64,000 nt of DNA. It comes from Brevibacillus laterosporus DSM 25 (GTDB taxonomy: Bacteria > Bacillota > Bacilli > Brevibacillales > Brevibacillaceae). The position numbers and the translations under genes are program-made. A model generated the notes under the pieces. The model did not search any database, was not told the origin of the DNA, and saw only the letters and a list, made by a program, of their open reading frames with translations. The stretch is from positions 2,699,001 through 2,763,000 of the forward strand of contig NZ_CP017705.1 in assembly GCF_002706795.1 (NCBI RefSeq), given 5' to 3'. Positions 29,961 through 46,954 of this stretch are shown piece after piece; the stretch's first letter is position 1, and each line of letters starts with the position of its first letter.

Positions 29961-30038
29961 ATTTATCTATAAAACATGTGGGATATCAACATTTTATGGC
30001 ATACATACATAGCCATGATGTGATAAACTACTCATAAA

Positions 30039-30053
30039 TGAGAATTATTATCA
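30039..30053 (+). promoter_or_regulatory. Fur box
   Basis: TGAGAATTATTATCA matches the 7-1-7 Fur consensus except for one base. It lies 53 bases before the AraC-type gene. Confidence 0.8.
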
Positions 30054-30106
30054 ATAAATATAGCCATATATCACAACCCTTGTATATACAGATAGGAGGG
30101 GAGAAA

Positions 30107-31072: not shown

Positions 31073-31452
31073 ATGGGATTTTAGACATGTCATATACATG
31101 AGTTTTAATGTGAAAATGACCGCCTGGTGATCAGCTAAGGCGGTCATTCATGTTTATCCTGATGCATCTAAAACAATTGCTCTCGCGTATGATACGCCTT
31201 TCAGTTGTTATTGTTCATTTTCTACTCCTTTCTGTACTATTTACGTATGAAGGGCACAAATGTATACAACCTTTCTAAAAAAATATCGATCTATCACAAC
31301 GAAAATCTCAAATTGAAATCATCCTTGAGTTTTCATGTATAATAAGCGAAGGTAAGAAGGTATCGAATATTAGATTTGTCCATGTGACAAGTAGGATAAA
31401 TGGAAAAATAAAAATCACTTCTTTATAGAATAGATGGAATGAGGAACAAGTC
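31073..31452. other. Intergenic stretch with one terminator
   Basis: AATGACCGCC (31115-31124) and GGCGGTCATT (31139-31148) form the terminator of the AraC gene. The rest contains no supported gene; a 38-codon frame at 31162 is hydrophobic but has no ribosome site. Confidence 0.55.
31115..31148 (+). terminator. Terminator of the AraC-type gene
   Basis: A perfect 10-bp stem with a 14-base loop is followed by a short T-rich run. Confidence 0.7.
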
Positions 31453-32328
31453 TTGAAGACATTTAAAAAGGTATACATTGAGATTACTAGTGTTTGCAAT
31501 CTTGCCTGTAGCTTTTGTCCACAAACAGGTCGACAAGCTAGGTTTATTAAGCTAGACACGTTTACTACTATTTTGGACCAAATTAAACCACACACGAAGC
31601 ATATCTATCTACATGTGAAGGGAGAACCGCTCCTTCATCCTAAAATTGATGAATTGCTGGATGTGAGCCATGAGAAGGGATTTAAGGTCAACATCACGAC
31701 AAACGGAACCCTTATTCAAAAGAATCGTATCAAGCTACTGGGCAAGCCAGCCTTGCGTCAAATGAACTTCTCGTTGCATAGCTTTGATGGTCATGAAGGT
31801 TCCGTTGATCGTGATAACTATTTATCTAACATTCTATCCTTTGTTCGAGAGGCGGCCGAGCATAACGTGATCATATCCTTTCGTCTCTGGAATCTGGATC
31901 AAGATAACGCAACGAACCTTCAAAGGAATAGAAACAGAGAGACCTTAGAGGTATTGGAAAAGGAATTTCATTTAAACTATAAAATTGAAGAAAAAGTGGC
32001 TCCTGGAAGCGGAGTCAAGATTGCTGAACGGATTTATCTCAATCAGGATCATGAATTTGAATGGCCGAGTTTGCACGCACCCGAAGATGATGGAAAAGGC
32101 TTTTGCCATGCCCTTCGTAGTCAAGCTGGAATCCTTGTGGATGGAACGGTTGTACCGTGCTGTTTGGATGGAGAAGGTGTGATTAATTTGGGAAATGTCC
32201 AAACTACACCTTTCTCTGAAATCGTAGAGAGTGAGAGAGCAAATAATCTTTTTGATGGATTTTCTAGAAGGGAAGCTGTCGAGGAATTATGTAGGAAATG
32301 TGGATATAGAAAGCGATTTGGTGCATAG
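31453..32328 (+). CDS. Radical SAM/SPASM-type protein
   Basis: The start is TTG 31453, with GAGGAAC upstream. The 291-residue protein begins with the radical SAM cluster motif Cys-x3-Cys-x2-Cys (CNLACSFC, about residues 12-19) and KGEPLLHP and NITTNGTLI segments of the barrel. The C-terminus has a shortened SPASM-like region: GFCHAL, GTVVPCCLDGEG and CRKCGYR (four Cys groups). It probably carries a second Fe-S cluster. SPASM proteins modify peptides or other substrates by radical chemistry. It has its own terminator, so it may not belong to the cluster downstream, although it lies only 340 bases away. Confidence 0.8.
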   Translation: MKTFKKVYIEITSVCNLACSFCPQTGRQARFIKLDTFTTILDQIKPHTKHIYLHVKGEPLLHPKIDELLDVSHEKGFKVNITTNGTLIQKNRIKLLGKPALRQMNFSLHSFDGHEGSVDRDNYLSNILSFVREAAEHNVIISFRLWNLDQDNATNLQRNRNRETLEVLEKEFHLNYKIEEKVAPGSGVKIAERIYLNQDHEFEWPSLHAPEDDGKGFCHALRSQAGILVDGTVVPCCLDGEGVINLGNVQTTPFSEIVESERANNLFDGFSRREAVEELCRKCGYRKRFGA

Positions 32329-32370: not shown

Positions 32371-32405
32371 AAGGAACACCTGTCATTTTATAGGTGTTCT
32401 TTTTT
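32371..32405 (+). terminator. Terminator of the radical SAM gene
   Basis: GGAACACCT pairs with AGGTGTTCT and is followed by six Ts. Confidence 0.85.
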
Positions 32406-32665
32406 GTTGTTACATAAAATTTATAAAATATGGAATTAGCGAAACCTTACTTACTCTTAATAGTGTCCGGAATAGAACGAGAGTGGAATTGCGAGTTGAA
32501 TTGATAAAAAAAGTCAATATATTTTCCGAAATTTATTGAAAAATATATAAAATGTACAAAAAATATACAATTATAGTAACTTGTTTTTTAAAAAATATCG
32601 TGATAACATGTAAACAATTTAGTAAATAATACCATTTATTCAAAAAATATAGAGAGGTTAAGCCG
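32406..32665 (+). promoter_or_regulatory. Probable promoter region of the biosynthetic cluster
   Basis: The stretch is very AT-rich and has no gene. TTGTTT (32581-32586) and TAACAT (32604-32609) are 17 bases apart and form a moderate promoter candidate 57 bases before the first gene. A second TTGATA occurs near 32500. No operator is obvious. Confidence 0.35.
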
Positions 32666-33411
32666 ATGGATAGGGAATCGATTACAGTTGTGACCGGATA
32701 TCATTTCTTGATAGATAAAGAACAAATAAGCTCGAATAAATGGTTTGGCAAAATAGATGATACAGCTTTCACTTCAATACATACACAAAAACCGTTTAAA
32801 ATTCATCAAAAATTGACACCGTTTCTTCTGGAATCTGTCGCTTATGTTGTTTCTTTATTAGAACAGAAAAATCTTTTACCAGAGCCAGATCGAAGAGGAG
32901 TCATTATGAATGTGCCTAATGCTGTCTCTATAGAAATTGATTCTTATCTAAATGCTTTTCATCAACCGCGCAGAAGAATCAGACCGCATCAGAGCTTAGC
33001 TATCGATTCAAGCTCTCCAACTGCACTTGTTACCCTGCAATTCAATTTTAAAGGGCCCTCTGCAACATTGACTGATCAGTATGGTGGCTTGAGTGGTTTA
33101 GGCTGGGCGTACAATCTGATAAGGGAAAATCGTACTGATTTAATGATAGTAGTTGATATAGATCGGGAGCCTTCCTTAACAGACGATTTTGTTGGAAGTA
33201 TTAGTGTTGCGGCGTTAATGAAAGAGTCTACCCTAGGGGGATAGTACCAGTCGGAAAACTAGCAGATTGGACATTTGGGCATCCGGGAAATGACAGTTTA
33301 TACGGAAGTAAGCTAGAGCAGGCAATGGTCTGGCTTGAATCAGAGAATTCATCGCCACGGTTTGGTTATGTCGATCATGACAACTGGGCAATTTACTTTA
33401 CCAAATCATAG
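32666..33411 (+). pseudogene. Ketosynthase-like protein without active Cys, frameshifted
   Basis: From ATG 32666 the frame runs to a TAG at 33242-33244 (192 residues). At a run of Gs (33235-33240) a one-base shift restores an open frame to TAG 33409-33411, giving about 248 residues. The core reads FNFKGPSATLTDQYGG, which aligns with the ketosynthase GPS-x4-TACSS active-site strand but has Tyr where the Cys should be. It thus resembles the chain-length-factor or non-catalytic partner of a ketosynthase, though it is short. It stands just ahead of a complete ketosynthase. The shift may be a sequencing error, a programmed slip or a mutation. Confidence 0.55.
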
Positions 33412-33424
33412 GGGGGAGCAGGGA

Positions 33425-34567
33425 ATGAGAGTAGGTATCGCTGGTCTGGGTATCGTTTCTCCTTATGGATTCGGTTTTGAGCTGTTTTCTAAAGGTCTGC
33501 TTTCTGGGAAAAGTGCGCTTACCTCTTTAACCAGATTTGATGCTCAAGGTTTTCGATCCCAAGTAGGTGGACAAGTTGACTTTCAAAGCGACAAATTAGA
33601 GGAATCAATAGCGGAATTTTGGTTGAACAAAGCCTTACAAGAGGCAGTGGAACAAGCAGAGTGCAAACTAGAGACGTGGCGTGGCTGCAAAAAAGCTATT
33701 ATTTTACCAGTTGTGTGTGGGGATTCTTCATCTGCAATTGGAGAAAGGGCAGAGGTCTGGGTAAAAGACCCTTTAGAGTTCCTCCCTTTTGGATGGCGTG
33801 AGCAAACACCCGTATTACGTGTATCAGCAGCGTGTTCTTCCATTAGTTCTGCGATCGCAATGGCAAAAAGCCTTGTCTCACAGGGACAGCTCGATATGGT
33901 AATGATTGCACGAGCAGAGTTGTTAAATGAATATGAATATGCTTCGCTCGATATTGTTAAGGCTATTTCGACAGAGGCAGCACGTCCCTTCGACAAAGAT
34001 CGTAATGGAATTTTAGTAGGAGAAGGGGCAGGAATCATCTTACTTGAGTCAGAGGAAAGCCTGCAAGATCGTGGGAAAAAGCCACTAGCATGGATAGATG
34101 GAATTAGTCATATTGTTAGTGGATATGAAACAAATATGGTTGAGCTGGATAAAGAAAGTACGATACAAACGATGCGTGAGGCGCTAGAGGAAGCAAAGTG
34201 TAAAAAAGTCGATTGCATTCAGGCCCATGCAACAGGTACACCACAAGGTGATCTTGTTGAGGCAGTGGGCATTGTGGAGGCTATACAAGAGGGGAATATG
34301 ATCCCAGTTAGCTCCCATAAAGGTGCTATTGGACATTTGTTACGCTGTTCAGGGGTAATGGGATTGGCTTCAGGAATCATTTCTTTGCAAATGAAAGTAA
34401 TCCCACCAACTATTGGTTTGATAAACCTCGATCGGGCTTGTCCTGTTCATGCAGTAATCGGACACAGTATGAAGGCAACAGTAGAATCTGTGCTTATCAA
34501 TAGTTTTGGCTTCTGCGGAAATTATGTGTCGATGGTAGTCACTTCAGCAAACCGTGAGCAACAATGA
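33425..34567 (+). CDS. Beta-ketoacyl synthase (KS)
   Basis: The start is ATG 33425, after GGGGGGAGC; the longer frame begins inside the preceding gene. The 380-residue protein has all catalytic parts of a type II KS: AACSS with Cys137, HATGTPQGD with the first His near 268, SSHKGAIGH with Lys and the second His near 298-303, and NSFGFCGNY near the end. It should perform a decarboxylating condensation between a carrier-bound acyl group and a malonyl-type extender. The only carrier protein in the cluster is at 38296. No ketoreductase or acyltransferase is present, so these would have to come from fatty acid synthesis. Confidence 0.85.
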   Translation: MRVGIAGLGIVSPYGFGFELFSKGLLSGKSALTSLTRFDAQGFRSQVGGQVDFQSDKLEESIAEFWLNKALQEAVEQAECKLETWRGCKKAIILPVVCGDSSSAIGERAEVWVKDPLEFLPFGWREQTPVLRVSAACSSISSAIAMAKSLVSQGQLDMVMIARAELLNEYEYASLDIVKAISTEAARPFDKDRNGILVGEGAGIILLESEESLQDRGKKPLAWIDGISHIVSGYETNMVELDKESTIQTMREALEEAKCKKVDCIQAHATGTPQGDLVEAVGIVEAIQEGNMIPVSSHKGAIGHLLRCSGVMGLASGIISLQMKVIPPTIGLINLDRACPVHAVIGHSMKATVESVLINSFGFCGNYVSMVVTSANREQQ

Positions 34568-34627
34568 GCATGGAGAATGTATGATGATAAAAAATTTATA
34601 CGATAGTGTCGGAAAGTAGGAGAAAGT

Positions 34628-35629
34628 ATGAGTTTTATACACGTTTCAAATCTACAGAAAGAGTATGCTTATTATAGAAAGGAAGTTGGGTTACTCAATT
34701 CTATTAAAAATCTGTTCCATCGGGAAAAGCTGATCAAGGAAGCGGTACAGAAGATTTCATTTGATATTGATGAGGGAGAGATGATGGCTTTTCTTGGACC
34801 AAACGGTGCTGGAAAAACAACAACCCTGAAAATTTTATCGGGCATCTTGCATCCAACAAGTGGAGAAGCAACCGTGATGGGTTATGTTCCATGGGAGCGT
34901 AAGAAGGAATTTAAAATGAATTTTTCTATCGTTATGGGGCAAAAAAGTCAGCTATGGTGGGATCTACCCGCTAATGAATCCCTATATTTAAATAAATTCA
35001 TTTATGAAGTAGAGGACCGCGAGTATCAAAAAACATTGGAGGAGCTAACAGAGTTACTTGATGTCAAGGACGTTTTGGATGTACAAGTGAGAAGACTTTC
35101 CTTGGGGGAGAGAATGAAGCTAGAATTGGTGGCTGCCTTAATTCATCGACCTAAGGTTATTTTCTTGGACGAGCCTACCATTGGATTAGACCTTATCTCT
35201 CAGAAAAGCATTCGTAAATTTCTGAAGTATTACAATGAAGAGACGAAAGCTACGATCATCCTGACAACGCATTACATGAAAGACGTAGAAGACCTTTGCA
35301 AACGAGCTATTATTATCAATCAAGGAAAGATTGTCTATGATGGCAACTTAAACAAAGTAAATGAATTGCTGAACCAGAAGAAGCTCATTAAAATTCAATT
35401 TTCCTCTCCTGTTCAACAATCAGCTGTAGAGGCTTACGGGATTGTGAGAGAACACAATGAATTTGAAAGTTTGATTGAGCTGGATCGCGAGTCCTTAAAG
35501 CAAAACTCCAAGTTGATACTAGATCATTTGCCTGTAAGTGACATTAATGTAGAGGATATCCCCATCGAAGATAGTATTACGATTTTGTATAAGAAGGATG
35601 AGAAAAATGAGAAGGTTGCGCAGTTTTAG
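34628..35629 (+). CDS. ABC exporter ATP-binding protein
   Basis: TAGGAG precedes ATG 34628. The 333-residue protein has Walker A (GPNGAGKTTT), the signature LSLGERMK, Walker B (VIFLDEPTIGLD) and the switch His (TTHYMKD). An unusually long N-terminal stretch before Walker A (about 55 residues) and the whole pattern match the ATPase of three-gene ABC-2 systems in which two different permeases follow. It should power export of the cluster product or give self-protection. The next gene overlaps its 3' end. Confidence 0.88.
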   Translation: MSFIHVSNLQKEYAYYRKEVGLLNSIKNLFHREKLIKEAVQKISFDIDEGEMMAFLGPNGAGKTTTLKILSGILHPTSGEATVMGYVPWERKKEFKMNFSIVMGQKSQLWWDLPANESLYLNKFIYEVEDREYQKTLEELTELLDVKDVLDVQVRRLSLGERMKLELVAALIHRPKVIFLDEPTIGLDLISQKSIRKFLKYYNEETKATIILTTHYMKDVEDLCKRAIIINQGKIVYDGNLNKVNELLNQKKLIKIQFSSPVQQSAVEAYGIVREHNEFESLIELDRESLKQNSKLILDHLPVSDINVEDIPIEDSITILYKKDEKNEKVAQF

Positions 35630-36428
35630 GAAATATATTCATACCTTTCAATTAGGCATACAGTCAGCAGTTGAATATCGAGCTAATTTTGTTTTGGGAA
35701 TTGTGGGAAGTGTATTCTCCATCACTATATTAACCTACTTATGGACAGCTATTTTTGATAGTCAAAGTCCCGGTGCTACCGTTTTTGGGTACACCTATCG
35801 GGAGATGATTACATATACACTGATTGCAGCAGTGACAGCCAAGATCATTCAAGCTGGTTTTGAGTATGATGTAGCGGAAGATATAAAGGAGGGTGGGCTT
35901 AACAAATTTATAATTAGACCAATTGGATATCTTCCTTACAAAATCTATTCGTTTCTTGGTTCTAAACTCATATATATTGTTGTCAGCTTTATTTTAATCT
36001 TTCTCATTTTGTTCATCTTAAATAGGCTGATTCAAGTAGAAATTAACTTGGTTAATATCGGTTATTTTCTCATTACACTTTTACTTGCTCTCGTATTAAA
36101 CTTCTTTATCTTCTTTAGTATTACTACCATAGCCTTTTGGCTTGAGAATGTTTCTTATATATTTGAAGCTCCGAAAATTTTGCTTGTGATTTTAAGTGGG
36201 GGGATTTTTCCACTGGATGTCTTTGATGATACGATTCTTTCTTTTCTGAACTATTTGCCATTTAAATATACGGTAAATTATCCAGTAGATGTACTTATTG
36301 GAAAGTACCAGGGGATGGAACTAGTGACAGGTATGGGTCTACAAGTATTCTGGATTGTGGCTTTTGCTCTTCTCTCCAAATTGTTATGGGGTATCGGTAT
36401 TAAAAAATATATCGCTATAGGTGGATAA
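35607..36428 (+). CDS. ABC-2 type permease 1
   Basis: ATG 35607 is preferred to 35598, because AAGG lies 9 bases before it. The 273-residue protein has six membrane helices: about 20-45, 60-80, 105-135, 145-170, 180-200 and 230-265. VAEDIKEGGLNKFIIRPIGY lies between helices 2 and 3, a hallmark of these ABC-2 permeases (GxLDxxLxxPI). It overlaps the ATPase gene and is followed by permease 2 with a 2-base gap. Confidence 0.85.
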   Translation: MRRLRSFRKYIHTFQLGIQSAVEYRANFVLGIVGSVFSITILTYLWTAIFDSQSPGATVFGYTYREMITYTLIAAVTAKIIQAGFEYDVAEDIKEGGLNKFIIRPIGYLPYKIYSFLGSKLIYIVVSFILIFLILFILNRLIQVEINLVNIGYFLITLLLALVLNFFIFFSITTIAFWLENVSYIFEAPKILLVILSGGIFPLDVFDDTILSFLNYLPFKYTVNYPVDVLIGKYQGMELVTGMGLQVFWIVAFALLSKLLWGIGIKKYIAIGG

Positions 36429-36430
36429 AC

Positions 36431-37243
36431 ATGGCATGGGTTAAAGAATTGAAAAAAATATTAAAAATTTACTATCTCTTCTGTAAAAATTGTCTGATGG
36501 CCCAAATGGAATATCGTTTTAATTTTTTTGTCGGGGTCATTGTGGAGAGTGGTTTTGTATTATCCAAGTTGATTTATATCTTCGTCATATACCAGTCGGG
36601 TTTGATTATTGAAGGATTAAGCAGAGATTCCATTCTATTGTTCTCAGGAACATTTATGTTGGTGACAGGGGTATACGTAAGCCTTTTCGTCGTTAACTTT
36701 TTCAAAATCTCAGAGGATTATATACACGAAGGAAAACTCGATTTATATATTACAAAACCAATATCTCTACAATTCCTTACTACAATGAGATATATAGACT
36801 TCGGCTTGGCGATTCCCAACTTAGTAGTCGGAGGTGTGCTACTGGTGATGGGATGGAGTCGATTAGGAATTGAGGTTAGTTTGGCCAATATCGCAGGCTA
36901 CGTCCTATTTTTAATCGGAGGAATTGTAATTAGTTATACGGTCATGTTGATCCCGCATCTCTTTTCGTTTTGGTTTATTAAAACATCCGCTGTGAATGAC
37001 TTGAGCAATGACATTTGGGAATTTGGGCATATGCCAGCGAGAATCTATAGTAAGACAATCCAGACCATTGGTATTTACATTATTCCGTTATTTTTAGCGA
37101 GCAACTTCGGACCATTGTATCTCTTAAATCAATTAAGCACAGCGAATATGATGTGGGGTATCCTTGCTCCACTAGCATTGTTGCTTTTGACTCGGGTATT
37201 GTGGAAGGCAGCAGTTCGGAATTATTCAAGTGCAAGCAGTTGA
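36431..37243 (+). CDS. ABC-2 type permease 2
   Basis: The 270-residue protein has six helices and the loop EDYIHEGKLDLYITKPIS, the same landmark as in permease 1, but is otherwise distant. The pair should form a heterodimeric channel. Start ATG 36431 has GGTGG upstream. Confidence 0.85.
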   Translation: MAWVKELKKILKIYYLFCKNCLMAQMEYRFNFFVGVIVESGFVLSKLIYIFVIYQSGLIIEGLSRDSILLFSGTFMLVTGVYVSLFVVNFFKISEDYIHEGKLDLYITKPISLQFLTTMRYIDFGLAIPNLVVGGVLLVMGWSRLGIEVSLANIAGYVLFLIGGIVISYTVMLIPHLFSFWFIKTSAVNDLSNDIWEFGHMPARIYSKTIQTIGIYIIPLFLASNFGPLYLLNQLSTANMMWGILAPLALLLLTRVLWKAAVRNYSSASS

Positions 37244-37268
37244 GTTTTCATAGAGAGGTGGAACAGTA

Positions 37269-38276
37269 ATGAAATTCTCAGTTAGCTTCTTTTCGAATTT
37301 GAATGATTCTACAGCCCAAAACATGCAGGATCACTATGAATTTTTATTCGAAGTAATCCAATTTGCGGAGGAGCATGGCTGGTATGGTGTCTGGTTTCCT
37401 GAGAGGCACTATCATACCTTTGGTGGGTTATTTCCTAGTCCATCCGTTTTTGCCGCGGCTGTAGCAAGGGAAACAAAGAAACTGCGCATTCAGGTAGGAA
37501 GTGTCATATTGCCTCTCCATTCGCCCATTCGAATTGCAGAAGAATGGGCAATGGTGGATCAATTGTCAAAGGGGAGAGTAAGCATTTCCTTTGCTTCTGG
37601 CTGGAATCCCAACGATTTTAAAGAAAATCCAGAGCATTTCGATCATCGAAAAGAACGAATGTGGGAGGGAATGGAAAGGATTGAAAACCTTTGGAATGAC
37701 CGAGAAACAGATATAACAATATATCCCAAACCCTACCAGGAACAAATCCCGATTTATGTAACCGTAGCTTCTTCAAAAGAGACTTGTTATGAAGCTGGGA
37801 AACGTGGATACCATTTGTTAACTCATTTTATTTTTAATGATATGAATGATGTAAAGCAGAAGATTGAGCTGTATCATGCTGGATTACGCGATGGAGGTCA
37901 TAGCGTAGAAGACAAAGATGTAACCATTTTGCTTCATACCTATCTGGATCATGATCTAAAAGCGGTAGAACAGATCGTAAAGAATGCCTTTTATGAGTAC
38001 CAGCACGCTTTCCTGTCATTGGCAGAGGCTACCCCCCATTATGAAAGTAAACGAGAAGAAGAGATTGCGAAAACGATGATGCTTAAGAAGTATTCTCCTC
38101 ATTATTCCCTGCTAGGTACCCCAGAGACTTGTACGACTGTATTGAAGAAGCTAGAGGAGATAGGTGTCACGCAGGTTGCAGCGCTGGTTGACTTTGGATT
38201 AGAAAGACAGAAGATCATGGAGAGCTTGGAACGTTTGCATTCGCTTGTAAAAGAGGCGAACGTCCAAATCATTTAA
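37269..38276 (+). CDS. Luciferase-like monooxygenase (MupA-type)
   Basis: AGAGAGGTGG precedes ATG 37269. The 335-residue protein is a bacterial-luciferase-like flavin monooxygenase. It has the segments WYGVWFPERHYHTFGGLFPSPSVFAAAVA (in part) and IRIAEEWAMVDQLSKGRVSISFASGWNPNDF (in part), which mark the natural-product MupA/Atu3640 subgroup. Members of this group act on carrier-bound acyl or aminoacyl chains in polyketide and nonribosomal pathways; BtrO of butirosin is an analogous hydroxylase. It needs reduced FMN from an unlinked reductase. It sits directly before the carrier protein, the likely substrate platform. Confidence 0.88.
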   Translation: MKFSVSFFSNLNDSTAQNMQDHYEFLFEVIQFAEEHGWYGVWFPERHYHTFGGLFPSPSVFAAAVARETKKLRIQVGSVILPLHSPIRIAEEWAMVDQLSKGRVSISFASGWNPNDFKENPEHFDHRKERMWEGMERIENLWNDRETDITIYPKPYQEQIPIYVTVASSKETCYEAGKRGYHLLTHFIFNDMNDVKQKIELYHAGLRDGGHSVEDKDVTILLHTYLDHDLKAVEQIVKNAFYEYQHAFLSLAEATPHYESKREEEIAKTMMLKKYSPHYSLLGTPETCTTVLKKLEEIGVTQVAALVDFGLERQKIMESLERLHSLVKEANVQII

Positions 38277-38295
38277 TGAAAGGGAATGAAAGGAA

Positions 38296-38559
38296 ATGAC
38301 AGAAGCTACGATACGTACCATCCTACAAGACATGCTTGAGATCAAGGAACCTATTGCTGAATGTGATGACCTAACCAAAATGGGTTTAGACTCCATGACT
38401 ACGATTCGCTTAATAGTTGCACTAGAGCAAGCATTTGATCTGGAGTTCAGTGAGGAAGATCTCTTACTGGCAAATTTTCGAACTCTGGAGAAAATAACTG
38501 GTTTAATTAATGAACGACAATCAGAGCAAGTAGTTTATACAGAAAAGAGTGAGTGCTAA
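38296..38559 (+). CDS. Acyl/peptidyl carrier protein
   Basis: The 87-residue protein has a four-helix carrier fold. GLDSMTTIRLI carries the serine (Ser33) for the phosphopantetheine arm. The acidic helix 2 region and length are typical of type II carriers. Its stop overlaps the start of the amino acid ligase by one base (TAATG), so the pair are coupled and probably partners. Confidence 0.88.
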   Translation: MTEATIRTILQDMLEIKEPIAECDDLTKMGLDSMTTIRLIVALEQAFDLEFSEEDLLLANFRTLEKITGLINERQSEQVVYTEKSEC

Positions 38560-39674
38560 TGAAAAAACAGTATCATGTAGCTGGAACCCTCTCTCAATCG
38601 CAAGCAGAAGCGATTACTTCGAAATTAATGTATAGTCTTGAGGGGATTTCCCATTGTTCCTTCTATCCTGAAACAAAGCAAATTGAAATTGACATCGTCG
38701 ACAAAAGTAAAGAAACACATATTGATCAGGTTATTCAAACCATGATAGAGGAACAAAAGAGTATCCGATCTTTTCCTAATCGAATCATTCGAAAGACCGA
38801 TGGAGACATCACAAAAGTACGAGTCAATGAGGAAGAAATGCTAGCAGAGTTTTCAGAGTTGGTTCGAAAAGAGTCTGCCGTTACTCTGTATGAGGCATTA
38901 CAGCGCCTTTTTACGGAATACGCAGTATCTAAACAGGCAAGGGCGAGAATTTATTCTTCTTTAATTCCAAGACAGACACTGGAAAAATGTCAGTATGTGA
39001 AAAACTTTCCACAAAACCTATATGTGGTTGCCGAATTTCCTCATGAGTATGAAGTGCTTAATCAGGTTGGTCAAACAGATAACTATGAAGAACATATTCG
39101 TTGCAGTGAGCATCTTCTTTCGCCAGCTCTATGTTTTCATTGCTATGAGGAGTATTCCAATCAGACTTTGCATGAACCATTGTTACTTAGTACAGAAGGG
39201 GTTTGTTTCCGGCATGAGGCTCCATGGCGTCTGGGAAAACATCGACTTCATAATTTTAGAATGAGAGAGTTTGTTTTTATGGGAAATGAATCCTTTGTAG
39301 AGGAAACCAGGTCCTTTTTTTTAGATTTAATATGGAAATTATTTGTTAAATTAGGATTTAGTGGTTATGTAGAGACGGCACATGATCCTTTTTATTTTCC
39401 TCATCACGCTGAGAAAAGTCAGTATCAGTTGATGGCTCACATGAAATATGAGCTGATTATTTCAACTGACACAGGTAGCTTTTCAATTGCTTCCTTTAAT
39501 AATGTGAAAGACACGCTATGTAAAGAGTTTGGTATTACGGAACCAAATGGTTCGATATTGCATTCAGGTTGCGTAGCTTTTGGGATTGACCGATGGGTAT
39601 ATGCCTTGCTGGTTGTGTATGGTACTCAACTTCAAGAATGGCCTATTCAGATAAGAGAAATTTTGGATATATAA
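38559..39674 (+). CDS. Amino acid:carrier-protein ligase (class II aaRS-like)
   Basis: ATG 38559 overlaps the carrier gene stop. The 371-residue protein has a unique N-terminal part (about 1-150) and a class II synthetase core. The core has CFRHEAP (motif 2, residues 216-222), FRMREFV (233-239), a late ASFNN strand, and HSGCVAFGIDRW (motif 3). Cys192, Glu237 and Cys338 sit where the atypical seryl-tRNA-synthetase relatives hold zinc. Those enzymes lack a tRNA domain and load glycine or alanine onto a carrier protein instead of tRNA. The same reaction is expected here, on the carrier at 38296. The exact amino acid cannot be read. Confidence 0.75.
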   Translation: MKKQYHVAGTLSQSQAEAITSKLMYSLEGISHCSFYPETKQIEIDIVDKSKETHIDQVIQTMIEEQKSIRSFPNRIIRKTDGDITKVRVNEEEMLAEFSELVRKESAVTLYEALQRLFTEYAVSKQARARIYSSLIPRQTLEKCQYVKNFPQNLYVVAEFPHEYEVLNQVGQTDNYEEHIRCSEHLLSPALCFHCYEEYSNQTLHEPLLLSTEGVCFRHEAPWRLGKHRLHNFRMREFVFMGNESFVEETRSFFLDLIWKLFVKLGFSGYVETAHDPFYFPHHAEKSQYQLMAHMKYELIISTDTGSFSIASFNNVKDTLCKEFGITEPNGSILHSGCVAFGIDRWVYALLVVYGTQLQEWPIQIREILDI

Positions 39675-39714
39675 ATTTTTTTACTGTTGATAAATAGAAG
39701 GAGGCTTACTACTT

Positions 39715-40905
39715 ATGATTTTTGCTACAAAGGAAAGAGACGTGCAATTAAAACGATTGGACAAGCTTATCTCAGGAATTCGAACGAACAAAGTAGAGCT
39801 GCTAGATATTTTGACGGAGATTGCTACTTATGATAGTGCTGAGGCTGAGATCGAATCTTCCATCGCGACTTTGCTTGGAGCTGAAGAGGAAGTGGAGCGT
39901 TACAATCCCCCTACTATTGATCGAATTGCAGTTTATCATTCATCAAATGTTTTGTTGTACTCCTACGTGTTATATGCCGCTATCCCAAGTTTATTTTGCA
40001 AGGAAATCTTGATCAGACCCTCTACAAAGGCTTTATCTACAATGGTAAAGCTTCATGATTTCTTGATGAAGCAGGCAGATATACCATCCCAACTACTCCC
40101 CATCTCCCAACGGAAATTTAGAGAACAGGCAGGGCAATCAGATGTAGTTGTCTTTACTGGGAATTATGAAAATAGTTTGAAGGTACAACAAACATATCCA
40201 CAAGCTTTGTTCTTGTATTTCGGAGCTGGAATTAATCCATTTATCATTGGAGAAAAAGCAAATATAGAAGATGCTTCCAAGCGAGCTGTAGCTGCTCGTG
40301 TCTATAATTCGGGACAGGATTGTATGTGCCCCAACGTTTATTTTGTCCACGAGAACATGAAAGAGCGTTTTCTAGCTACATTGATTCAGGAGATTAAAGA
40401 ATTGCAGATTGGTAAACGAAATGTACCGGGGAATGTAATTGCTCCGTTATTTTACGAGGGATTGTCCGAGCAGGCACAGGATTATCTCACACAAATGAAA
40501 GACCGTATTGTTTATGGTGGAGCAGTGGATTTGTCCATAAATTATGTAGAGCCGACTGTTGTCGTGTCCCCCCTTGAAAAAATTGGTGAGGTTATTGAGT
40601 TTTTCTGCCCAATCTTTCATGTTGTAACCTATCGAGATGAACAAGAGGTAGTGGATTGGTTACATGCGCCTGAACGTGTAGAGAGTACTCTTGGAGCCTC
40701 TGTTTTTGGAGTGCCAGAGCTAGTAGAAAAATTACGCTCTACCCATATCGTTTCAGAGAATTTGAGCTTATATGATATTGAAAATGGAAATCATCCGTTT
40801 GGTGGCTATGGTTTACAAGCGAATTATGTGTGTCACCAAGGAAATTTTACTAGTCGTCCTCTTTTAATCTCCAAAGAAGTATCAGCCGTATTTGGTAGAA
40901 AATAA
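39715..40905 (+). CDS. Aldehyde dehydrogenase-like / acyl reductase
   Basis: AAGGAGG precedes ATG 39715. The 396-residue protein belongs to the aldehyde dehydrogenase superfamily. The catalytic loop NSGQDCMCPN carries the nucleophile Cys203, and EPTVVVSP, EFFCPIFHVV and a C-terminal NHPFGGYGLQ segment are all in place. The N-terminal nucleotide part is shorter than usual (about 396 against 480 residues). It could oxidise an aldehyde or, in reverse, reduce a carrier- or CoA-bound acyl group to an aldehyde that releases the chain. Confidence 0.75.
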   Translation: MIFATKERDVQLKRLDKLISGIRTNKVELLDILTEIATYDSAEAEIESSIATLLGAEEEVERYNPPTIDRIAVYHSSNVLLYSYVLYAAIPSLFCKEILIRPSTKALSTMVKLHDFLMKQADIPSQLLPISQRKFREQAGQSDVVVFTGNYENSLKVQQTYPQALFLYFGAGINPFIIGEKANIEDASKRAVAARVYNSGQDCMCPNVYFVHENMKERFLATLIQEIKELQIGKRNVPGNVIAPLFYEGLSEQAQDYLTQMKDRIVYGGAVDLSINYVEPTVVVSPLEKIGEVIEFFCPIFHVVTYRDEQEVVDWLHAPERVESTLGASVFGVPELVEKLRSTHIVSENLSLYDIENGNHPFGGYGLQANYVCHQGNFTSRPLLISKEVSAVFGRK

Positions 40906-40940
40906 CTACATAATCCATAACGATAGAAGGATGTGAAGTA

Positions 40941-42653
40941 ATGGAGGCAATAAAAAGTCTGACGATCTGGGATGCTTATGCGAGTGTACTTGTAGAGCAA
41001 GGCATAACCAAACTGTTTGGTATGGTGGGAGATGGTGCAGGGTTAATTGAATCCGCATATAAAAAAGAGGGACTACATATTTTCACGGCACGCGACCAGC
41101 GGATAGCGGTTGGAATGGCAATGGGACATGCTCAGGTGTCAGGGAATCCAGCGGTGCTAGTTACCAGTCCGGGACCTGGAATTGCAAACTGCATAATGGG
41201 TGTATTAGAGGCATATTCTGCTGCTGTACCCCTAATAGTTATCTCAAATGCCACAGCACGGAACATGCGCGGTGAAGGAGCCTTTCAAGAAACCAACTCT
41301 ATTGCTATGATGCAACCTGTGACGAAATGGTGCTATCGTGTGGAGCATCCAGAGAAAGCCATTTGGGCTTTGCGACGAGCTGTTTTTGTAGCTGTTAATG
41401 GAAAACCGGGTCCAGTCTATCTTGAAATTCCAGATGATCTCACATGGGAGGAGCTAGGTAGTGGATCGTTCTCTGCTGATAAAAAGAACCTTGATGAGCA
41501 AGGCCCTATTTTTTCTCAGCCAGAAGAACAAAGTATGCGTAATGTATTCAATCAGCTAACGAAAGCAAAACGTCCTATCATCCTGTTAGGAGGGGGATGT
41601 CAACATCGTCCATTCGTGTCTGAATTAACAATCTCCTTAGCAGAGGCACATGGATTAGCCATCTTTACTACAGCATCTGGAAGAGGAATCGTAGATGAGA
41701 GACATCCTTATGCTTTTGGAAATGTAGGGCTGTATACGTTACCACAAATCAAGAAGCTCCTTTTCGAAGCAGATATGATTATAGCGATTGGAACTCAATT
41801 AGAGGAAACAGCTTTGATGGGTTGGAAGGAAGCCCTATCAAATACATGCTTTGTACATATTGATTGCCATTATGAGTCGCTAGAGCGTTCGGTTCATGCC
41901 GATTACAGGCTACTTGGGGATGCCCAGCTTTCTCTGCAAAACTTATGGCGAATGTCATGCGAGAATATGGATTGTGGTACCAATAGCAAAAATGAGTGGA
42001 TAAAAAGAATGCAGGAAGTAAAACAAGAAGCTCTGTCAGTTTGGGCAGAAATAGAAGACATAAAGGCACCTGTAAGAAGTATGCTAAAGGGAATCGAGCA
42101 TGAATTTGGAGAGCATGTCGTTTTGGTTCAGGATAATGGTTTACATGATATGTGGGGATATTCGTATCCTGTTTATACGGTTGCTCCGCCCAGTCGTACA
42201 GTTGTTCCCGGTGAACAAACAGCCTTGGGTTTACCGATGGGCATATCCTTAGGAGCGAAGATTGCTGATAGAAAAGCACATGTTATTGCCTTACTCGGGG
42301 ATGGTTCGTTTGAAATGGGATACTCAGCTGTGGGTAGTGCTGTCGAGCATCAATTGGGTATCACTTTTATAGTGATAAATAATGGTGGATTTTCTTGGCC
42401 AAGATTTCAGCAAAGCATGAGTGAAATGGAAATAGGCTGTTGCTTTCAAATAGAGCTAAACTATGCTGCTTTGGCTCAATCGGTTGGCGGTTATTATAAA
42501 AAATTGACTACGTCAAATGAATACCAAGAGGCATTAAAAGAAGCAAGGCTGTATACAGAACAAAATAAGATTGCTTTGCTAGAATTAGTGGTTAACTGGG
42601 ATCAAGACTTGCCAATTACAGTGATGATGCAATATGGAGACAAAGAACAATAA
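40941..42653 (+). CDS. Thiamine diphosphate enzyme (acetolactate synthase-like), Gln for Glu
   Basis: GAAGGATGTGAAG precedes ATG 40941. The 570-residue protein has the three domains of the acetolactate synthase/benzoylformate decarboxylase family. In the first domain LVTSPGPGIANCI and GAFQETNS are clear, but the usual Arg-His-Glu-Gln that supplies the cofactor-activating Glu reads Arg-Asp-Gln-Arg (51-54), so the Glu appears to be Gln53. The cofactor motif GDGSFEMG runs to INNGG (about 451-482). Glyoxylate carboligase also lacks this Glu. A carboligase acting on an unusual donor or aldehyde is possible; the substrate is unknown. Confidence 0.85.
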   Translation: MEAIKSLTIWDAYASVLVEQGITKLFGMVGDGAGLIESAYKKEGLHIFTARDQRIAVGMAMGHAQVSGNPAVLVTSPGPGIANCIMGVLEAYSAAVPLIVISNATARNMRGEGAFQETNSIAMMQPVTKWCYRVEHPEKAIWALRRAVFVAVNGKPGPVYLEIPDDLTWEELGSGSFSADKKNLDEQGPIFSQPEEQSMRNVFNQLTKAKRPIILLGGGCQHRPFVSELTISLAEAHGLAIFTTASGRGIVDERHPYAFGNVGLYTLPQIKKLLFEADMIIAIGTQLEETALMGWKEALSNTCFVHIDCHYESLERSVHADYRLLGDAQLSLQNLWRMSCENMDCGTNSKNEWIKRMQEVKQEALSVWAEIEDIKAPVRSMLKGIEHEFGEHVVLVQDNGLHDMWGYSYPVYTVAPPSRTVVPGEQTALGLPMGISLGAKIADRKAHVIALLGDGSFEMGYSAVGSAVEHQLGITFIVINNGGFSWPRFQQSMSEMEIGCCFQIELNYAALAQSVGGYYKKLTTSNEYQEALKEARLYTEQNKIALLELVVNWDQDLPITVMMQYGDKEQ

Positions 42654-42722
42654 GTATGTCTCATGGGAGCGTTCGAATGGAAACAATGTATGTAGATGTC
42701 CAAATAAGCTAGGAGGAATCCC

Positions 42723-43685
42723 ATGAATCTGGCTATTCCGACACACCATCCAGTCATGTATAACAAGCGAAAGGAATTTTTAGATTGCTTAGAGTATCTC
42801 ATTTGTTCTTATATTCAAGGATTTGGAGTGCCGTATCATTGGCTACTGTCCGACAGATGGGGATTTTATTATCGAAGCATTGATGATTTCACAGCAGCAA
42901 AGGAAGAGGTATTGATACCTTTTCCTGGTACGTTACAAAAAATTTACAAGGCAGAATTTCTTCATTACGAAAAGCGTGAGCTATTGGATGTGGTCAAAGA
43001 AACTATCAGTCAAAATCGACAGCTTTTTACTGTTGTGGATGGTAGATTCTTTCCATGGTATACAGATATGGAAATCTTCTCTCATTTTGTTTTAATTCAA
43101 GATTATGATTCGGCATCTAAGCTTTTTTATATAACAGATTTGTGGCCATATGAATTTTCAGATTGGTTCCCGATCGAACCTACCAAGCAAGCCTATGAAG
43201 TAGAAGGTAGGTACAGCTTTACATTGACCGAACCATCCTTACAAATCAGCGAGGAATTGCTTCAACAGCAATTTAGGTCCGTTTGTGACAAAATTACTGG
43301 TACTGATCCTGGATATGAGGGCTATCTCAGCGGACAAAAAGCATTGCTTGCTTGTCAGCAGGATATGATATTGCATGGGAAAGATTTAGGAATTCATCTG
43401 GATAAAATATTTGACATGTTAAAACGAGTAATAAACTATCGGGATGGTTTTCTAGAGTTTGTTTTATATGCAGATCAAGACCAAACAAGCCCTGTACGCA
43501 ACGAGATAGATCCAGCACTTATTACTTTAGTAGAAGAGACAGTAAATATGTGGGCTGTGTTTCGAAATTATTTGATTAAGGCGAAGGTTACGGGAAGCAC
43601 TACTTTCCAAAAACAGATTGATTGGGTCGATAAAATCATTGAAAAAGAAAAAGAAGTTTATGAAAAGTTAACTACCTATTTCTAG
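42723..43685 (+). CDS. BtrH-like protein (possible aminoacyl transferase) 1
   Basis: TAGGAGG precedes ATG 42723. The 320-residue protein has an N-terminal region with Cys22 in FLDCLEYLICSY, a strand FFPWYTDMEIFSHFVLIQDYD with His and Asp, and a helical C-terminal domain. This order recalls the papain/C39-like fold of BtrH-type proteins, which move an aminoacyl group from a carrier protein to an amine. The match is by pattern only and Cys-His-Asp roles are assumed. A related protein is at 44319. Confidence 0.4.
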   Translation: MNLAIPTHHPVMYNKRKEFLDCLEYLICSYIQGFGVPYHWLLSDRWGFYYRSIDDFTAAKEEVLIPFPGTLQKIYKAEFLHYEKRELLDVVKETISQNRQLFTVVDGRFFPWYTDMEIFSHFVLIQDYDSASKLFYITDLWPYEFSDWFPIEPTKQAYEVEGRYSFTLTEPSLQISEELLQQQFRSVCDKITGTDPGYEGYLSGQKALLACQQDMILHGKDLGIHLDKIFDMLKRVINYRDGFLEFVLYADQDQTSPVRNEIDPALITLVEETVNMWAVFRNYLIKAKVTGSTTFQKQIDWVDKIIEKEKEVYEKLTTYF

Positions 43686-43717
43686 ACTGATAGAAAAGCG
43701 ATTGAGGTGCTTGAACA

Positions 43718-44287
43718 ATGAGTATGACAGAGGCACATATAATTGGTTTGGCATCCGTTTTCAATGCAAAGGGAGTATCAAACCAAGACCCAACGCTGGA
43801 TGCTCAGTTGGATCATGTACACAGTAGCATTCCGGGAGAGATATTTCCAAGCGATGAAGTAATTTCATACCAAGGAATTCCTTTTGCCTTCCCATTAACT
43901 GAAACGGTTGATAATGATGTTATAAGTTGTGATGGCCAAATCATTGAAGTAAACGCTCCAAATTCCTTTCAAACCTTAGCTTTCCTAGGTTTTTCATTGT
44001 TTGGCGATTATCAGGATAAATTTACAATTCAATATGTGGATGGAATGGAGGAAGAGGCGCGATTTGGTTTAACTAACTGGAAACAGTATAAAACTGGAAC
44101 ACCACTGTTTGGAGAACAGATAGCAATGTCTCTACCCTATTATGTAGAGAACATGATTCTTACTGAACTCCCAAGAACCATTTGGTTGCAGAAAGTAGCT
44201 CTTCGACATTCAGAGCACATCAAGCAAGTCATACTACCAAGAAATCCATATCTGATTGTAATTGCTCTTACCCTGTGTAACGTATAG
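43718..44287 (+). CDS. Stand-alone beta-sandwich protein
   Basis: GAGGTGCTTG precedes ATG 43718. The 189-residue protein reads like the accessory beta-sandwich domains of some glycoside hydrolases. It has IPFAFPL, a DGQIIEV strand, LAFLGFSLFGDY, FTIQYVDGMEEEARFGLTNW and a late IWLQKVAL strand. In those enzymes the domain is an appendage that binds sugar; here it is alone inside a biosynthetic operon. It has no catalytic motif. It might bind a glycosylated substrate or act as a scaffold. Confidence 0.5.
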   Translation: MSMTEAHIIGLASVFNAKGVSNQDPTLDAQLDHVHSSIPGEIFPSDEVISYQGIPFAFPLTETVDNDVISCDGQIIEVNAPNSFQTLAFLGFSLFGDYQDKFTIQYVDGMEEEARFGLTNWKQYKTGTPLFGEQIAMSLPYYVENMILTELPRTIWLQKVALRHSEHIKQVILPRNPYLIVIALTLCNV

Positions 44288-44318
44288 AGCCTACACGTTG
44301 GAAAGGAAGCGTACAGCA

Positions 44319-45467
44319 ATGAAAATACGACCATTTGAACCAGAAAGGAAAGCTCCGTATTATTCCATTTGCCTTCACGTCATCCTGCATGAGCGATTAA
44401 GGCATGAGGGAATGACTAGCTTTCTTAGCTTACATCCCAATATAGAGATGTATAGCGTAACGGTTTATTCTAAGAAAAAAGATGTAATTAACATGAGATA
44501 TGGTTTATGGGATGAATATATAGATTCTTTCCGTTTAAGTAAGCTGGGCTATGGAGTCAGTCCAGAGCATATGGGCTATAAAATAGAGAACATGTCGTTT
44601 AGAACCTATGAGGAAGGGAAGCTGGCTATTCTTCATAATATTCAAAATAAACATCTTTCATTGATTGGTGCTACATATTTTCACCTGCCTTACAGCGAAT
44701 ATTATCATAGTGATAAGTATCTGATGGATTACAATAGTCTTCACCCCGGAATTACTAAGCATTGGATATCTGTATATGGGATAGATGAGCAAAAGGCATT
44801 GATTTATGATGGTGTCCCAGGAGATTATGTTGGGAGTATACAGCTTCAAGACTTTGAAGCCTGCTGGCGTGGAGATCGGGCTATTAAACAATTAGAAAAA
44901 AATACGAAAGTACAGGGTAAAAAAGAGTTTCAAATGCTACAGCTCCATGAAATTTGCAAAATAGGTAAGAGTGACGTAATGAAACTGATGGAGAGTGTAG
45001 CTGTTACAGTTGCTTTTGAGTATACTCGGGGGCTCATCGTTCGAGAAGGTAACGACACACATTACTTTGGAAGAAGCGCAATTAATCAGCTAGTAGAGGA
45101 TTTGAGCTCCTATAAATATGATGATCAACTGAATGGAGGTCATCTTTCTGATTATGGCCAAGCTGTTCTGGAAATAAAACTGATGCGCTACTACTATCTG
45201 GATTTGCTTAAAGATTTGGTAATGCTATACGGTTCTGTTTATGAGGAGGAATTGGCCCAGTTTGAGAAGATTGTAAAACGATGGGAAGTTACCAACATTG
45301 GTCTGATGAAGCATATTATGCGACAGTCGCCACTTAAAAAGTTTTTAACAACAACAATTGAGTCAGTAGAGCAGGTGGGGATGCAAGAGAATCAATTTTT
45401 TATTGAATTTCTTCACAGACATTCTCATATTTCCTTAGTAGAACCCATAAAAACAATCCAAATATGA
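44319..45467 (+). CDS. BtrH-like protein (possible aminoacyl transferase) 2
   Basis: The start is ATG 44319, with GGAAAGGAAG upstream; the frame from 44262 overlaps the previous gene. The 382-residue protein resembles the 42723 product in layout. It has an N-terminal part with YYSICLHVIL (a Cys), then GITKHWISVYGIDEQKALIYD (a His on a strand followed by Asp), and a helical C-terminal half with many Leu and Tyr. A C39/BtrH-like fold is suggested. The two paralogues may act on different donors or form a heterodimer. Confidence 0.4.
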   Translation: MKIRPFEPERKAPYYSICLHVILHERLRHEGMTSFLSLHPNIEMYSVTVYSKKKDVINMRYGLWDEYIDSFRLSKLGYGVSPEHMGYKIENMSFRTYEEGKLAILHNIQNKHLSLIGATYFHLPYSEYYHSDKYLMDYNSLHPGITKHWISVYGIDEQKALIYDGVPGDYVGSIQLQDFEACWRGDRAIKQLEKNTKVQGKKEFQMLQLHEICKIGKSDVMKLMESVAVTVAFEYTRGLIVREGNDTHYFGRSAINQLVEDLSSYKYDDQLNGGHLSDYGQAVLEIKLMRYYYLDLLKDLVMLYGSVYEEELAQFEKIVKRWEVTNIGLMKHIMRQSPLKKFLTTTIESVEQVGMQENQFFIEFLHRHSHISLVEPIKTIQI

Positions 45468-45492
45468 TCTCCCAAGGAAGGGAAGAAGCGGC

Positions 45493-46848
45493 TTGATTAA
45501 TTATGAGGTTTTTGTTGGCAGTACATCCTATACAGCCCTTATTAAACAAGAAATAGAACAGCTTATGGTTAGTATGAATCGTCTGGGAGTTTCTGCGGGT
45601 CATTTGGTTGCAATCGCTATTCATGAGCCCATCTCTTGGTTAATTTCCTATTATGCATGCAAAGAACTACAAGCGGTTCCTGTCATGCTAGGAAAGGTAG
45701 CCGAATTAGACAAACAGCTGGAGATAGTTCGAGCTGACTATGTGTGCTATACGAGCGATCATTACAAGATACAAATTGAGAGATTATCCTTGGTAAAGGA
45801 AAGGGATATGCCTAGTAACACCGCCCTCATTTGCAGAACCTCAGGCTCTACTGTAGGGATACCTAAATATGTAGCATGGAGTAAAGAGGGAATTGAATAT
45901 CAGAAACGCGAGACGACACAAGTATTCAAGTATAAGGAGGGGGAACGACTTCTTTTCACATTGCCACTTTGGGGAGCATATGGATTAAGTATTGTGGGAG
46001 TTTTGGAACAAAATAGCATGGATTTGGTCATTCCTGCTAATTTACGTCCTCGATCTATACTTACCGTGCTACAGGAACAGAAGGTTGGGTGGGTAGAAAG
46101 CGCTCCTTTCTTTTATCAATCTATGCTTCCTTATCTATTAAAAGAGCAGAGAGGGATTGTAGATATAGGAGTAAAGGGATGGGGATGTGGAGGCGATTTA
46201 CTTACCCATGCCTTCGTTCAACAGTGGGTGAAGATGACAGGTGTTCCCATATTGGATGGTTACGGATTAACGGAAGCAGGTCCTAATGTATCACTGAATC
46301 GCCCTTATGATTATTGTTACGGAACGGTTGGCAAACCACTTGTTGGAACGGAAATTCGCTTTTCTGAGGATAGAGAGTTGTGGGTTCGAAGCCCTTCTAT
46401 AATGTTAGGGTATTATGCCGATGGACAAGTAGATGCCTCGATGCTTAACGATGGATGGCTGTCTACTGGTGATATGGCAATCAGAGATGAGCAAGGGTAC
46501 GTGACTATTTTGGGAAGAAAAAAGAATATCATTATTGTCAATGGATATAATGTCAGCCCAGAATATGTAGAAAGAACCATAAGAGAACACGATGGAATAA
46601 GAGACGTAGCTGTTGTGGGAATTCCCCATCCAACACGTGGCAATCGATTGTGTGCTTTTGTGGTGGGTGATGAGTCTCTTACGAAAAGAGATATAGACCT
46701 ATTTGTAAAAGATAGAGTAGACGAGCCTTCCCGACCGAGTTTTTATGAAATGATTCCTGATTTACCGGTCCTAGCTAACGGAAAGACGGATCGAAATCAA
46801 CTACAAGCGATAGCAGAAGTCCGATTTGGTCAAGGAAGTTTCGTGTAG
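45493..46848 (+). CDS. Adenylate-forming ligase (AMP-binding)
   Basis: The start is TTG 45493 after GGAAGGG. The 451-residue protein has the ANL superfamily motifs: CRTSGSTVGIPKYVAWS (A3, phosphate loop), DGYGLTEAGP (A5), STGDMAIRDEQGYVTILGRKKN (A7-A8, in part), and ANGKTDRNQL with the catalytic Lys (A10). Both subdomains are present but the N-terminus is short. It activates a carboxylic acid as AMP ester and passes it to CoA, a carrier or an amine. Its substrate pocket cannot be read safely. It is the last gene before the terminator. Confidence 0.88.
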   Translation: MINYEVFVGSTSYTALIKQEIEQLMVSMNRLGVSAGHLVAIAIHEPISWLISYYACKELQAVPVMLGKVAELDKQLEIVRADYVCYTSDHYKIQIERLSLVKERDMPSNTALICRTSGSTVGIPKYVAWSKEGIEYQKRETTQVFKYKEGERLLFTLPLWGAYGLSIVGVLEQNSMDLVIPANLRPRSILTVLQEQKVGWVESAPFFYQSMLPYLLKEQRGIVDIGVKGWGCGGDLLTHAFVQQWVKMTGVPILDGYGLTEAGPNVSLNRPYDYCYGTVGKPLVGTEIRFSEDRELWVRSPSIMLGYYADGQVDASMLNDGWLSTGDMAIRDEQGYVTILGRKKNIIIVNGYNVSPEYVERTIREHDGIRDVAVVGIPHPTRGNRLCAFVVGDESLTKRDIDLFVKDRVDEPSRPSFYEMIPDLPVLANGKTDRNQLQAIAEVRFGQGSFV

Positions 46849-46911
46849 ACACTTGTAAGGAAAAGGAACTGGGACGTCATTCATGGAGAAATGACGGTTC
46901 AGACTATCGAC

Positions 46912-46954
46912 AAACCCCTCTTATGCTACTGACATTAGAGGAGTTTGTTTTTTT
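46912..46954 (+). terminator. Terminator of the biosynthetic cluster
   Basis: AAACCCCTCT (46912-46921) pairs with AGAGGAGTTT (46937-46946), with one mismatch, followed by GTTTTTTTT. It is the first strong terminator after 32405 on the plus strand. Confidence 0.75.

Follow-up and report, generated by a model that had tools for sequence, protein, structure and literature searches.

An orphan biosynthetic gene cluster of unfamiliar composition in Brevibacillus laterosporus, with a recurrent ANL-dehydrogenase-ThDP module

Within a stretch of 64,000 nucleotides from the genome of Brevibacillus laterosporus DSM 25 that we analyzed as a whole (hereafter the window; contig NZ_CP017705.1, positions 2,699,001 to 2,763,000; G000:C1:2699001-2763000 in our numbering, in which G000 is the B. 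laterosporus-type window genome), 14 genes, all pointing in one direction, occupy positions 32666-46848. They encode a ketosynthase (KS) with a putative partner protein, a three-gene exporter, a flavin monooxygenase, an acyl carrier protein (ACP), two ligases, a dehydrogenase, a thiamine diphosphate (ThDP)-dependent enzyme, two BtrH-like proteins and a 189-aa protein. This is an orphan cluster of unfamiliar composition, assembled from known families and equipped with an unusual, recurrent ThDP module. Judged by its enzyme families and their motifs, we consider it somewhat more probable than its negation (about 0.55) that the cluster specifies a compact pathway, operating without multidomain nonribosomal peptide synthetases (NRPSs) or polyketide synthases (PKSs), for an exported N-acyl-aminoacyl amide; the product would most likely be an N-acyl, possibly alpha-hydroxylated, aminoacyl amide.

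The cluster is confirmed as real, with well-placed borders; its genes and their order, catalytic motifs and sub-modules, the selection acting on it and its bounded match in a second genus are matters of observation. Gaps between open reading frames (ORFs) do not exceed about 90 bases. An earlier note on this DNA had described twelve co-directional genes bounded by terminators. The single direction across 32666-46848 is borne out, but the number is 14, because the exporter is made by three genes: one for the ATPase of an ATP-binding cassette (ABC) transporter (34628..35629, on the plus strand like all features of the cluster; DrrA-like, under that model's cut-off) and two for ABC-2 permeases of the ABC2_membrane_6 family (35598..36428, PF06182 at 1.7e-21; 36431..37243, PF06182 at 4.1e-39). 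The bounding terminators are present as described. Upstream, a pattern scan finds a terminator-like stem (32371..32402, plus strand), 3' of a radical S-adenosylmethionine (radical-SAM) gene and 5' of the cluster, which is followed by T-rich sequence; downstream, an inverted repeat with 16-nt arms at 46910-46925 and 46933-46948 leads into a run of eight T residues (46910..46954 in all, plus strand). The scan missed this downstream repeat, and its 13 sites in total compare with 11.6 expected from shuffled sequences. Independent support for both borders comes from a match to Aneurinibacillus thermoaerophilus, which spans 32538-46849.

By gene neighborhood, the genes for the ANL-family (acyl-AMP-forming) ligase (45493..46848; PF00501, 6.8e-29), the short aldehyde dehydrogenase (ALDH; 39715..40905; PF00171, 7.4e-27) and the ThDP enzyme of the acetolactate synthase/2-hydroxyacyl-CoA lyase superfamily (40941..42653; three Pfam domains) form a recurrent module, present in 11 of 11 loci of this dehydrogenase and newly recognized here. 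At an E value of 1e-40 or lower, the dehydrogenase subfamily is represented in 11 of the 398 genomes of the class. Outside the cluster, the ANL ligase and ThDP genes are directly adjacent to the dehydrogenase gene in all seven loci; in the four cluster carriers, only the ALDH and ThDP genes are neighbors, the ANL gene being found three genes beyond them. In the four Streptomyces plasmid loci that we opened, the ThDP gene lies 3' of the ALDH gene, with one small gene in between in locus L014, and in three of the four the ANL gene follows 3' of the ThDP gene. The intervening 218-aa protein of L014 has neither similarity to the KS partner nor a significant family match. Scans of four of the seven non-cluster loci revealed β-ketoacyl-ACP synthase III (KAS III) in two, FabD- or VinK-like acyltransferases in three, short-chain dehydrogenases/reductases in two, and FabA and a phosphopantetheinyl transferase in one each; KS matches occur in four of the seven. 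In the Streptomyces plasmid loci L014 (11884-18107), L016 and L017, the ALDH-ThDP-ANL genes are found near ATP-grasp and GNAT genes, and NikS-like and serine acetyltransferase genes are also nearby in L014 and L017.

The ThDP enzyme and the dehydrogenase of the module depart from their families at catalytic positions. All 11 aligned ThDP enzymes (an alignment without the copies of L007, L015 and L036) have Gln, within a D-Q-R motif, at the position of the catalytic Glu, and all seven ThDP chains printed from the Protein Data Bank (PDB), two from the full-length search and five from the first-domain search, have Glu at this site. Glyoxylate carboligase is a known exception to the catalytic-Glu rule of ThDP enzymes. 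All 10 aligned dehydrogenases (without L007, L015, L036 and L039) retain the catalytic Cys and have Y, F, G, S or T in place of the general-base Glu of the ELGG motif; loss of this Glu would point to thioester chemistry.

The KS (33425..34567, within an ORF that opens upstream at 33335) is best matched by the FabF model (197.5 bits) and is aligned end to end by the model of the cispentacin protein AmcF (NF058662; 139.1 bits, under the equivalog cut-off of 325). Its Cys-His-His residues and a Lys (C137, H268, K299, H304) recur in all seven aligned KS sequences, the window copy included. The preceding gene, gene 1 (32666..33244), would encode a KS-like partner lacking the active-site Cys; the residue at the aligned position is, by eye, Q in the window, R in L007, L in L008 and R in G003. 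Its PF00109 score is 22.0 bits against a cut-off of 20.8, its intact copies have no NCBIfam match, and a profile comparison between partner and KS, resting on a two-sequence profile, gave a probability of 0.6%. In the window, the reading frame shifts at a G run near 33240 and stops after 192 codons, as compared with 248-249 aa for the intact proteins of L007, L008 and G003; either an error in the sequence or a genuine loss could account for this.

The ACP (38296..38559; PF00550, 1e-10) carries a GLDSM motif, and its best NCBIfam models are those of the PRK07081 carrier protein and then of cispentacin AmcB, both under cut-off. Its gene overlaps at 38553-38559 with that of a seryl-tRNA-synthetase-like protein (38553..39674), a predicted amino acid:[carrier protein] ligase with a class II synthetase core. 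The ligase scores 141.7 bits with NF005479 over residues 111-371, under the equivalog cut-off of 357, and residues 1 to about 110 lie outside the shared core. Its nearest PDB match is Bll0957 (3mey; 1.1e-26), with the Cys residues aligned that we presume to bind zinc. A relative from Streptomyces decoyicus is 39% identical and aligns from residue 12; this best-scoring plasmid relative of the ligase (L009, 12083-15092) is found near genes for an ACP, a glycine amidinotransferase and DpgABC. Directly upstream of the ACP gene lies that for the MupA/Atu3671-type luciferase-like monooxygenase (37269..38276), which passes model TIGR04020 with 342.8 bits against a curated cut-off of 244.45 and matches PuwE (6ket) at 7.8e-77. 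Ligase, ACP, a BtrH gene and a relative of the 189-aa protein stand together in Alkalihalophilus pseudofirmus (L010), as do ligase, BtrH and ACP in Priestia koreensis (L011), there without a match to the 189-aa protein.

The presence of two BtrH-like proteins, as the earlier note had proposed, is better supported by their kinship to each other than by their family scores. BtrH1 (42723..43685) has Cys22, His121 and Asp139; BtrH2 (44319..45467, in an ORF opening upstream at 44262) has a Cys-His-Asp set as well. BtrH2 scores 23.7 bits with PF14399, under the gathering cut-off of 29.7, and BtrH1 has no match for the window copy and 14.0 bits for that of L008. However, a profile comparison between the two gave E 5e-5 and a probability of 67% over 283 columns, and the Cys-His-Asp residues are found in all six rows aligned with BtrH2 (the L010 row being taken from upstream of the annotated start) and in all three BtrH1 copies. 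PMC2922099 places BtrH in a papain-like, possibly transacylase-like family. Searches of plasmids returned no record for either BtrH1 or BtrH2 and seven for the 189-aa protein (43718..44287), at 22-26% identity. Relatives of the latter lie directly 5' of a BtrH gene in the three annotated loci among the four of seven that were opened, the fourth being unannotated; two of these three are Streptomyces loci and the third is L010. The 189-aa protein, called a beta-sandwich protein in the earlier note, had no family match that would bear out this fold, and the structure models of this protein and of BtrH1 (predicted local distance difference test scores of 38.6 and 41.2) were too poor for a fold search.

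The cluster behaves as a discrete unit. Four genomes carry it: the window genome, G003, G004 and G137, the last being that of A. thermoaerophilus L420-91. Its locus (L008) gave a single blastn match to the whole window, 32538-46849 at 89.5% identity, with the same order of 14 out of 14 genes and protein identities from 72% (ACP) to 96% (ATPase); the flanks of L008, about 4.0 kb and about 2.8 kb, are unmatched. The flanking M24 and radical-SAM proteins have no close counterparts in G137, where the matches are distant (E 7e-7 and 3e-4). In the B. laterosporus MSSRFCCT15 locus (L007) and in G003, cluster and flanks alike match the window at roughly 85-91%, and within Brevibacillus the cluster therefore occupies one site and has diverged about as fast as its surroundings. 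Synonymous divergence (dS) of the cluster is 0.31-0.58 towards L008, no larger than the 0.26-0.57 towards L007. A control segment of 180 aa from the spermidine synthase family, in contrast, is 100% identical between the window genome and G003 or G004 and 69% identical to G137. Given the sharp borders and this control protein (n = 1), lateral transfer between Brevibacillus and Aneurinibacillus is probable and the simplest reading. In the order search, which covered 39 genomes, BtrH1 turned up in three, namely 3/5 in the window's genus and 0/34 elsewhere; a near-identical dehydrogenase (89%) occurs outside the genus in one genome, G137, among the 398 of the class. We found no clean empty site; G002 possesses the radical-SAM gene, whereas its relatives of the M24 gene are all distant. 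Ratios of nonsynonymous to synonymous divergence (dN/dS) of 0.02-0.26 in the window-L007 and window-L008 pairs, obtained by a simple counting method and for gene 1 over its first 192 codons only, indicate purifying selection on all 14 genes. This mobile look of the unit and the recurrence of its module elsewhere go beyond what the earlier note had seen.

Just upstream, at 26292-32328, lie two adjacent ABC exporter genes, an AraC-type regulator gene and a gene for a radical-SAM/SPASM protein. All four adjoin the cluster in G003; of these genes, just that for the radical-SAM protein has a close relative in the G002 stretch examined. We considered the radical-SAM, AraC and ABC genes as members of the cluster and rejected them, as the A. 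thermoaerophilus match ends at 32538; the radical-SAM gene is, moreover, present in G002, where the search for BtrH1 found nothing.

Pfam and NCBIfam searches agree with the enzyme families first named for this cluster, save for the weak BtrH calls and the beta-sandwich protein, and the proposed succession of amino acid loading, flavin oxidation, BtrH transfer and export is consistent with these families and with their intact catalytic motifs. The substrates, the reactions and the order of the steps that we outline here are all predictions from sequence. The seryl-tRNA-synthetase-like ligase would put a small amino acid, most likely glycine, onto the ACP. The ThDP enzyme and the dehydrogenase would convert a 2-oxo acid into an acyl thioester one carbon shorter, with the ANL ligase loading an acid, either a starter or malonate. 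The KS, together with its Cys-less partner, would then add one C2 unit, a single elongation for which AmcF-AmcG with AmcB and AmcH provide a precedent (PMC10698177). Subsequently, the flavin monooxygenase would hydroxylate the carbon beside the carrier-bound thioester; flavin monooxygenase domains that hydroxylate a glycyl residue in NRPS modules are described in PMC10204066. The two BtrH-like acyltransferases with their Cys-His-Asp residues, putatively partnered by the 189-aa protein, would make two amide bonds, from the acyl chain to the amino acid and then from the amino acid to an amine, and the ABC-2 exporter would secrete the product.

Several points weigh against this proposal. Gene 1 is broken in the window genome, and its kinship to KS proteins appears as one Pfam score barely above the cut-off. 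The scores of the BtrH proteins for their family are low. With Gln in place of Glu, the ThDP enzymes may perhaps not carry out an ordinary decarboxylation. The Streptomyces module loci L016 and L017 have no KS match in the regions examined, and the module therefore need not feed a KS. Furthermore, ketoreductase, aminotransferase and flavin reductase are all absent among the 14 genes, and the substrates are predicted only.

The alternatives that we considered overlap with the proposed amide pathway, one being a special case of it and another changing a single step, and the confidences do not sum to one. The changed step concerns the ThDP enzyme, which might act as a carboligase rather than as a decarboxylase, the dehydrogenase reducing an ANL-loaded acyl thioester to the aldehyde; we regard this as possible, though on balance doubtful. 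To the same doubtful degree, the ThDP enzyme might then add a carbon unit and supply the KS with an alpha-hydroxy ketone or acid. Over its first 170 residues, the enzyme is best matched in the PDB by 2-hydroxyacyl-CoA lyases/synthases and oxalyl-CoA decarboxylases, which speaks for such a role, as does the lack of the Glu general base in the dehydrogenases, expected for thioester chemistry. The best full-length PDB match is an acetolactate synthase instead; yet acetolactate synthase also ligates, and homology can therefore not separate decarboxylase from carboligase. A further point in favor is the pathway with a KAS III described in PMC7466098, in which NzsH/CqsB3 join two 2-oxo acids. Still less probable, in our view, is a butirosin-like side chain, in which the amino acid, once loaded by the ligase, would undergo hydroxylation on the ACP before BtrH transfers it to a core made elsewhere, and the accompanying idea that KS and ThDP module would make an acyl cap is just as improbable. 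ACP, luciferase-type monooxygenase and BtrH are common to both systems, but Pfam and NCBIfam searches of the 14 genes revealed neither an ATP-grasp ligase nor a deacylase nor a butirosin-type decarboxylase, and the bounded unit encodes no sugar or cyclitol core.

Spergualin, an immunosuppressant precursor that contains alpha-hydroxyglycine, is a product of B. laterosporus. A special case of the amide pathway, in which spergualin or a close relative is the product of the cluster, is unlikely but deserves to be spelled out. A C5 guanidino starter, extended by one C2 unit, would give a 3-hydroxy-7-guanidinoheptanoyl chain that acylates glycyl-ACP; alpha-hydroxylation by the monooxygenase and transfer to spermidine would follow. 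Plausible enzymes are present for glycine loading, alpha-hydroxylation, C2 elongation and both amide bonds, the two BtrH proteins fitting the latter and the KS pair the single C2 unit; the window genome has two matches to the spermidine synthase family, and the distribution of BtrH1 over the order search (3/5 against 0/34) agrees with a product of this genus. On the other hand, the cluster also occurs in Aneurinibacillus, contains no ketoreductase, and no record of a carrier strain making spergualin was found. Nor was the amidinotransferase family PF02274 found in any of the four carriers (G000, G003, G004 and G137); among the nine genomes searched it was found in G002, G019 and G023, which lack a BtrH1 match, and 3 of 14 control genomes had matches. 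The guanidine might instead come with a starter derived from arginine or homoarginine.

We also rejected the notion, which would have strengthened the case for spergualin, that the genome has no other monooxygenase of this kind besides that of the cluster, as two further TIGR04020 monooxygenases score above the cut-off, both in candidate clusters. One of these (L060/L061, G000:C1:5160743-5189115) has NRPS/PKS genes, an aminotransferase domain and a beta-lactamase-family gene; its luciferase-type monooxygenase is inserted in an adenylation domain with a code that we read as glycine, and the cluster as a whole appears too large for spergualin. The other (L062/L063, G000:C1:4731316-4746592) has, in a row, an NRPS, a PKS with a ketoreductase domain, a free-standing MupA-type monooxygenase, a further NRPS, a methyltransferase and UbiA, the second NRPS ending, by eye, in a thioesterase-like portion. 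The adenylation codes of both NRPS clusters were read by eye, using the GrsA positions and the glycine code. The window monooxygenase is 38% identical to the L060/L061 enzyme and 36% to that of L062/L063, and sequence therefore does not choose among the candidate clusters for spergualin. No spergualin gene cluster was found in the open-licence papers that we searched. It is consequently with reserve, as an improbable though specific version of the amide pathway, that we suggest a spergualin-type assembly line of single-function proteins, which would make N-(3-hydroxyacyl)-alpha-hydroxyglycyl-polyamine amides with two BtrH proteins for the amide bonds and a new starter module that consists of an ANL ligase, an acylating ALDH and a ThDP enzyme operating with Gln instead of the catalytic Glu. 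Were it true, the biosynthetic genes of spergualin, from which the drug gusperimus descends as its parent compound, would become testable.

Should the more general proposal of an exported N-acyl-aminoacyl amide hold, then free-standing ligase, carrier, oxygenase and BtrH proteins can assemble amide natural products, and such pathways would be missed by searches for NRPSs and modular PKSs. The module is spread over Bacilli and Streptomyces in several settings, and its chemistry would thus bear on other orphan clusters.

Further features of the window lie apart from the cluster. A GC-rich (51%) BclA-type collagen-like gene at 56156-57946, probably for a spore-surface protein, contains a tandem array of about 27 copies of a 27-base unit (56775-57495). 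The window's only Rfam match at gathering score is a small RNA of the BsrC family (52874-52961; 78.7 bits). A protein with nucleotidyltransferase and AadA_C domains, resembling aminoglycoside adenylyltransferases, is encoded at 24410-25225, and a tandem repeat with a 246-base unit in 2.1 copies (19922-20435) overlaps the ORF at 19593-20438.

The claim that the combination of genes corresponds to no described cluster stands, as far as the open-licence literature that we searched is concerned, in which none of matching composition was found. Parts of several known systems are nonetheless recognizable. With cispentacin biosynthesis (AmcB, AmcF-AmcG, AmcH) the cluster has in common a single ACP, an adenylate-forming ligase and a KS whose partner is divergent and lacks the Cys. 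Its KS and ACP, however, score under the curated cut-offs and the KS scores higher with FabF; no counterpart of the aminotransferase AmcC, the thioesterase AmcD or AmcE was seen, and the window cluster adds the amino acid ligase, the monooxygenase and the BtrH and ThDP enzymes. The glycyl alpha-hydroxylating domains of myxothiazol and melithiazol, compared here through their description in PMC10204066, likewise set a flavin monooxygenase to work on a carrier-bound residue; the window enzyme differs in being free-standing, in a cluster without NRPS. Bll0957 (3mey) corresponds to the catalytic half of the window ligase, Cys residues included, whereas in the latter the shared core is preceded by about 46 additional residues (it starts at 112 versus 66), and the window ligase is set in a biosynthetic cluster. 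The butirosin side-chain pathway, with its roles for BtrI, BtrO and BtrH, has in common an ACP, a luciferase-type monooxygenase and a BtrH-like transferase; here, a seryl-tRNA-synthetase-like ligase replaces the ATP-grasp enzyme, and there are two BtrH-like proteins and a KS pair. As regards spergualin, its guanidine source and ketoreduction are unaccounted for in the window cluster, but the producer species and the number and kind of building blocks are alike.

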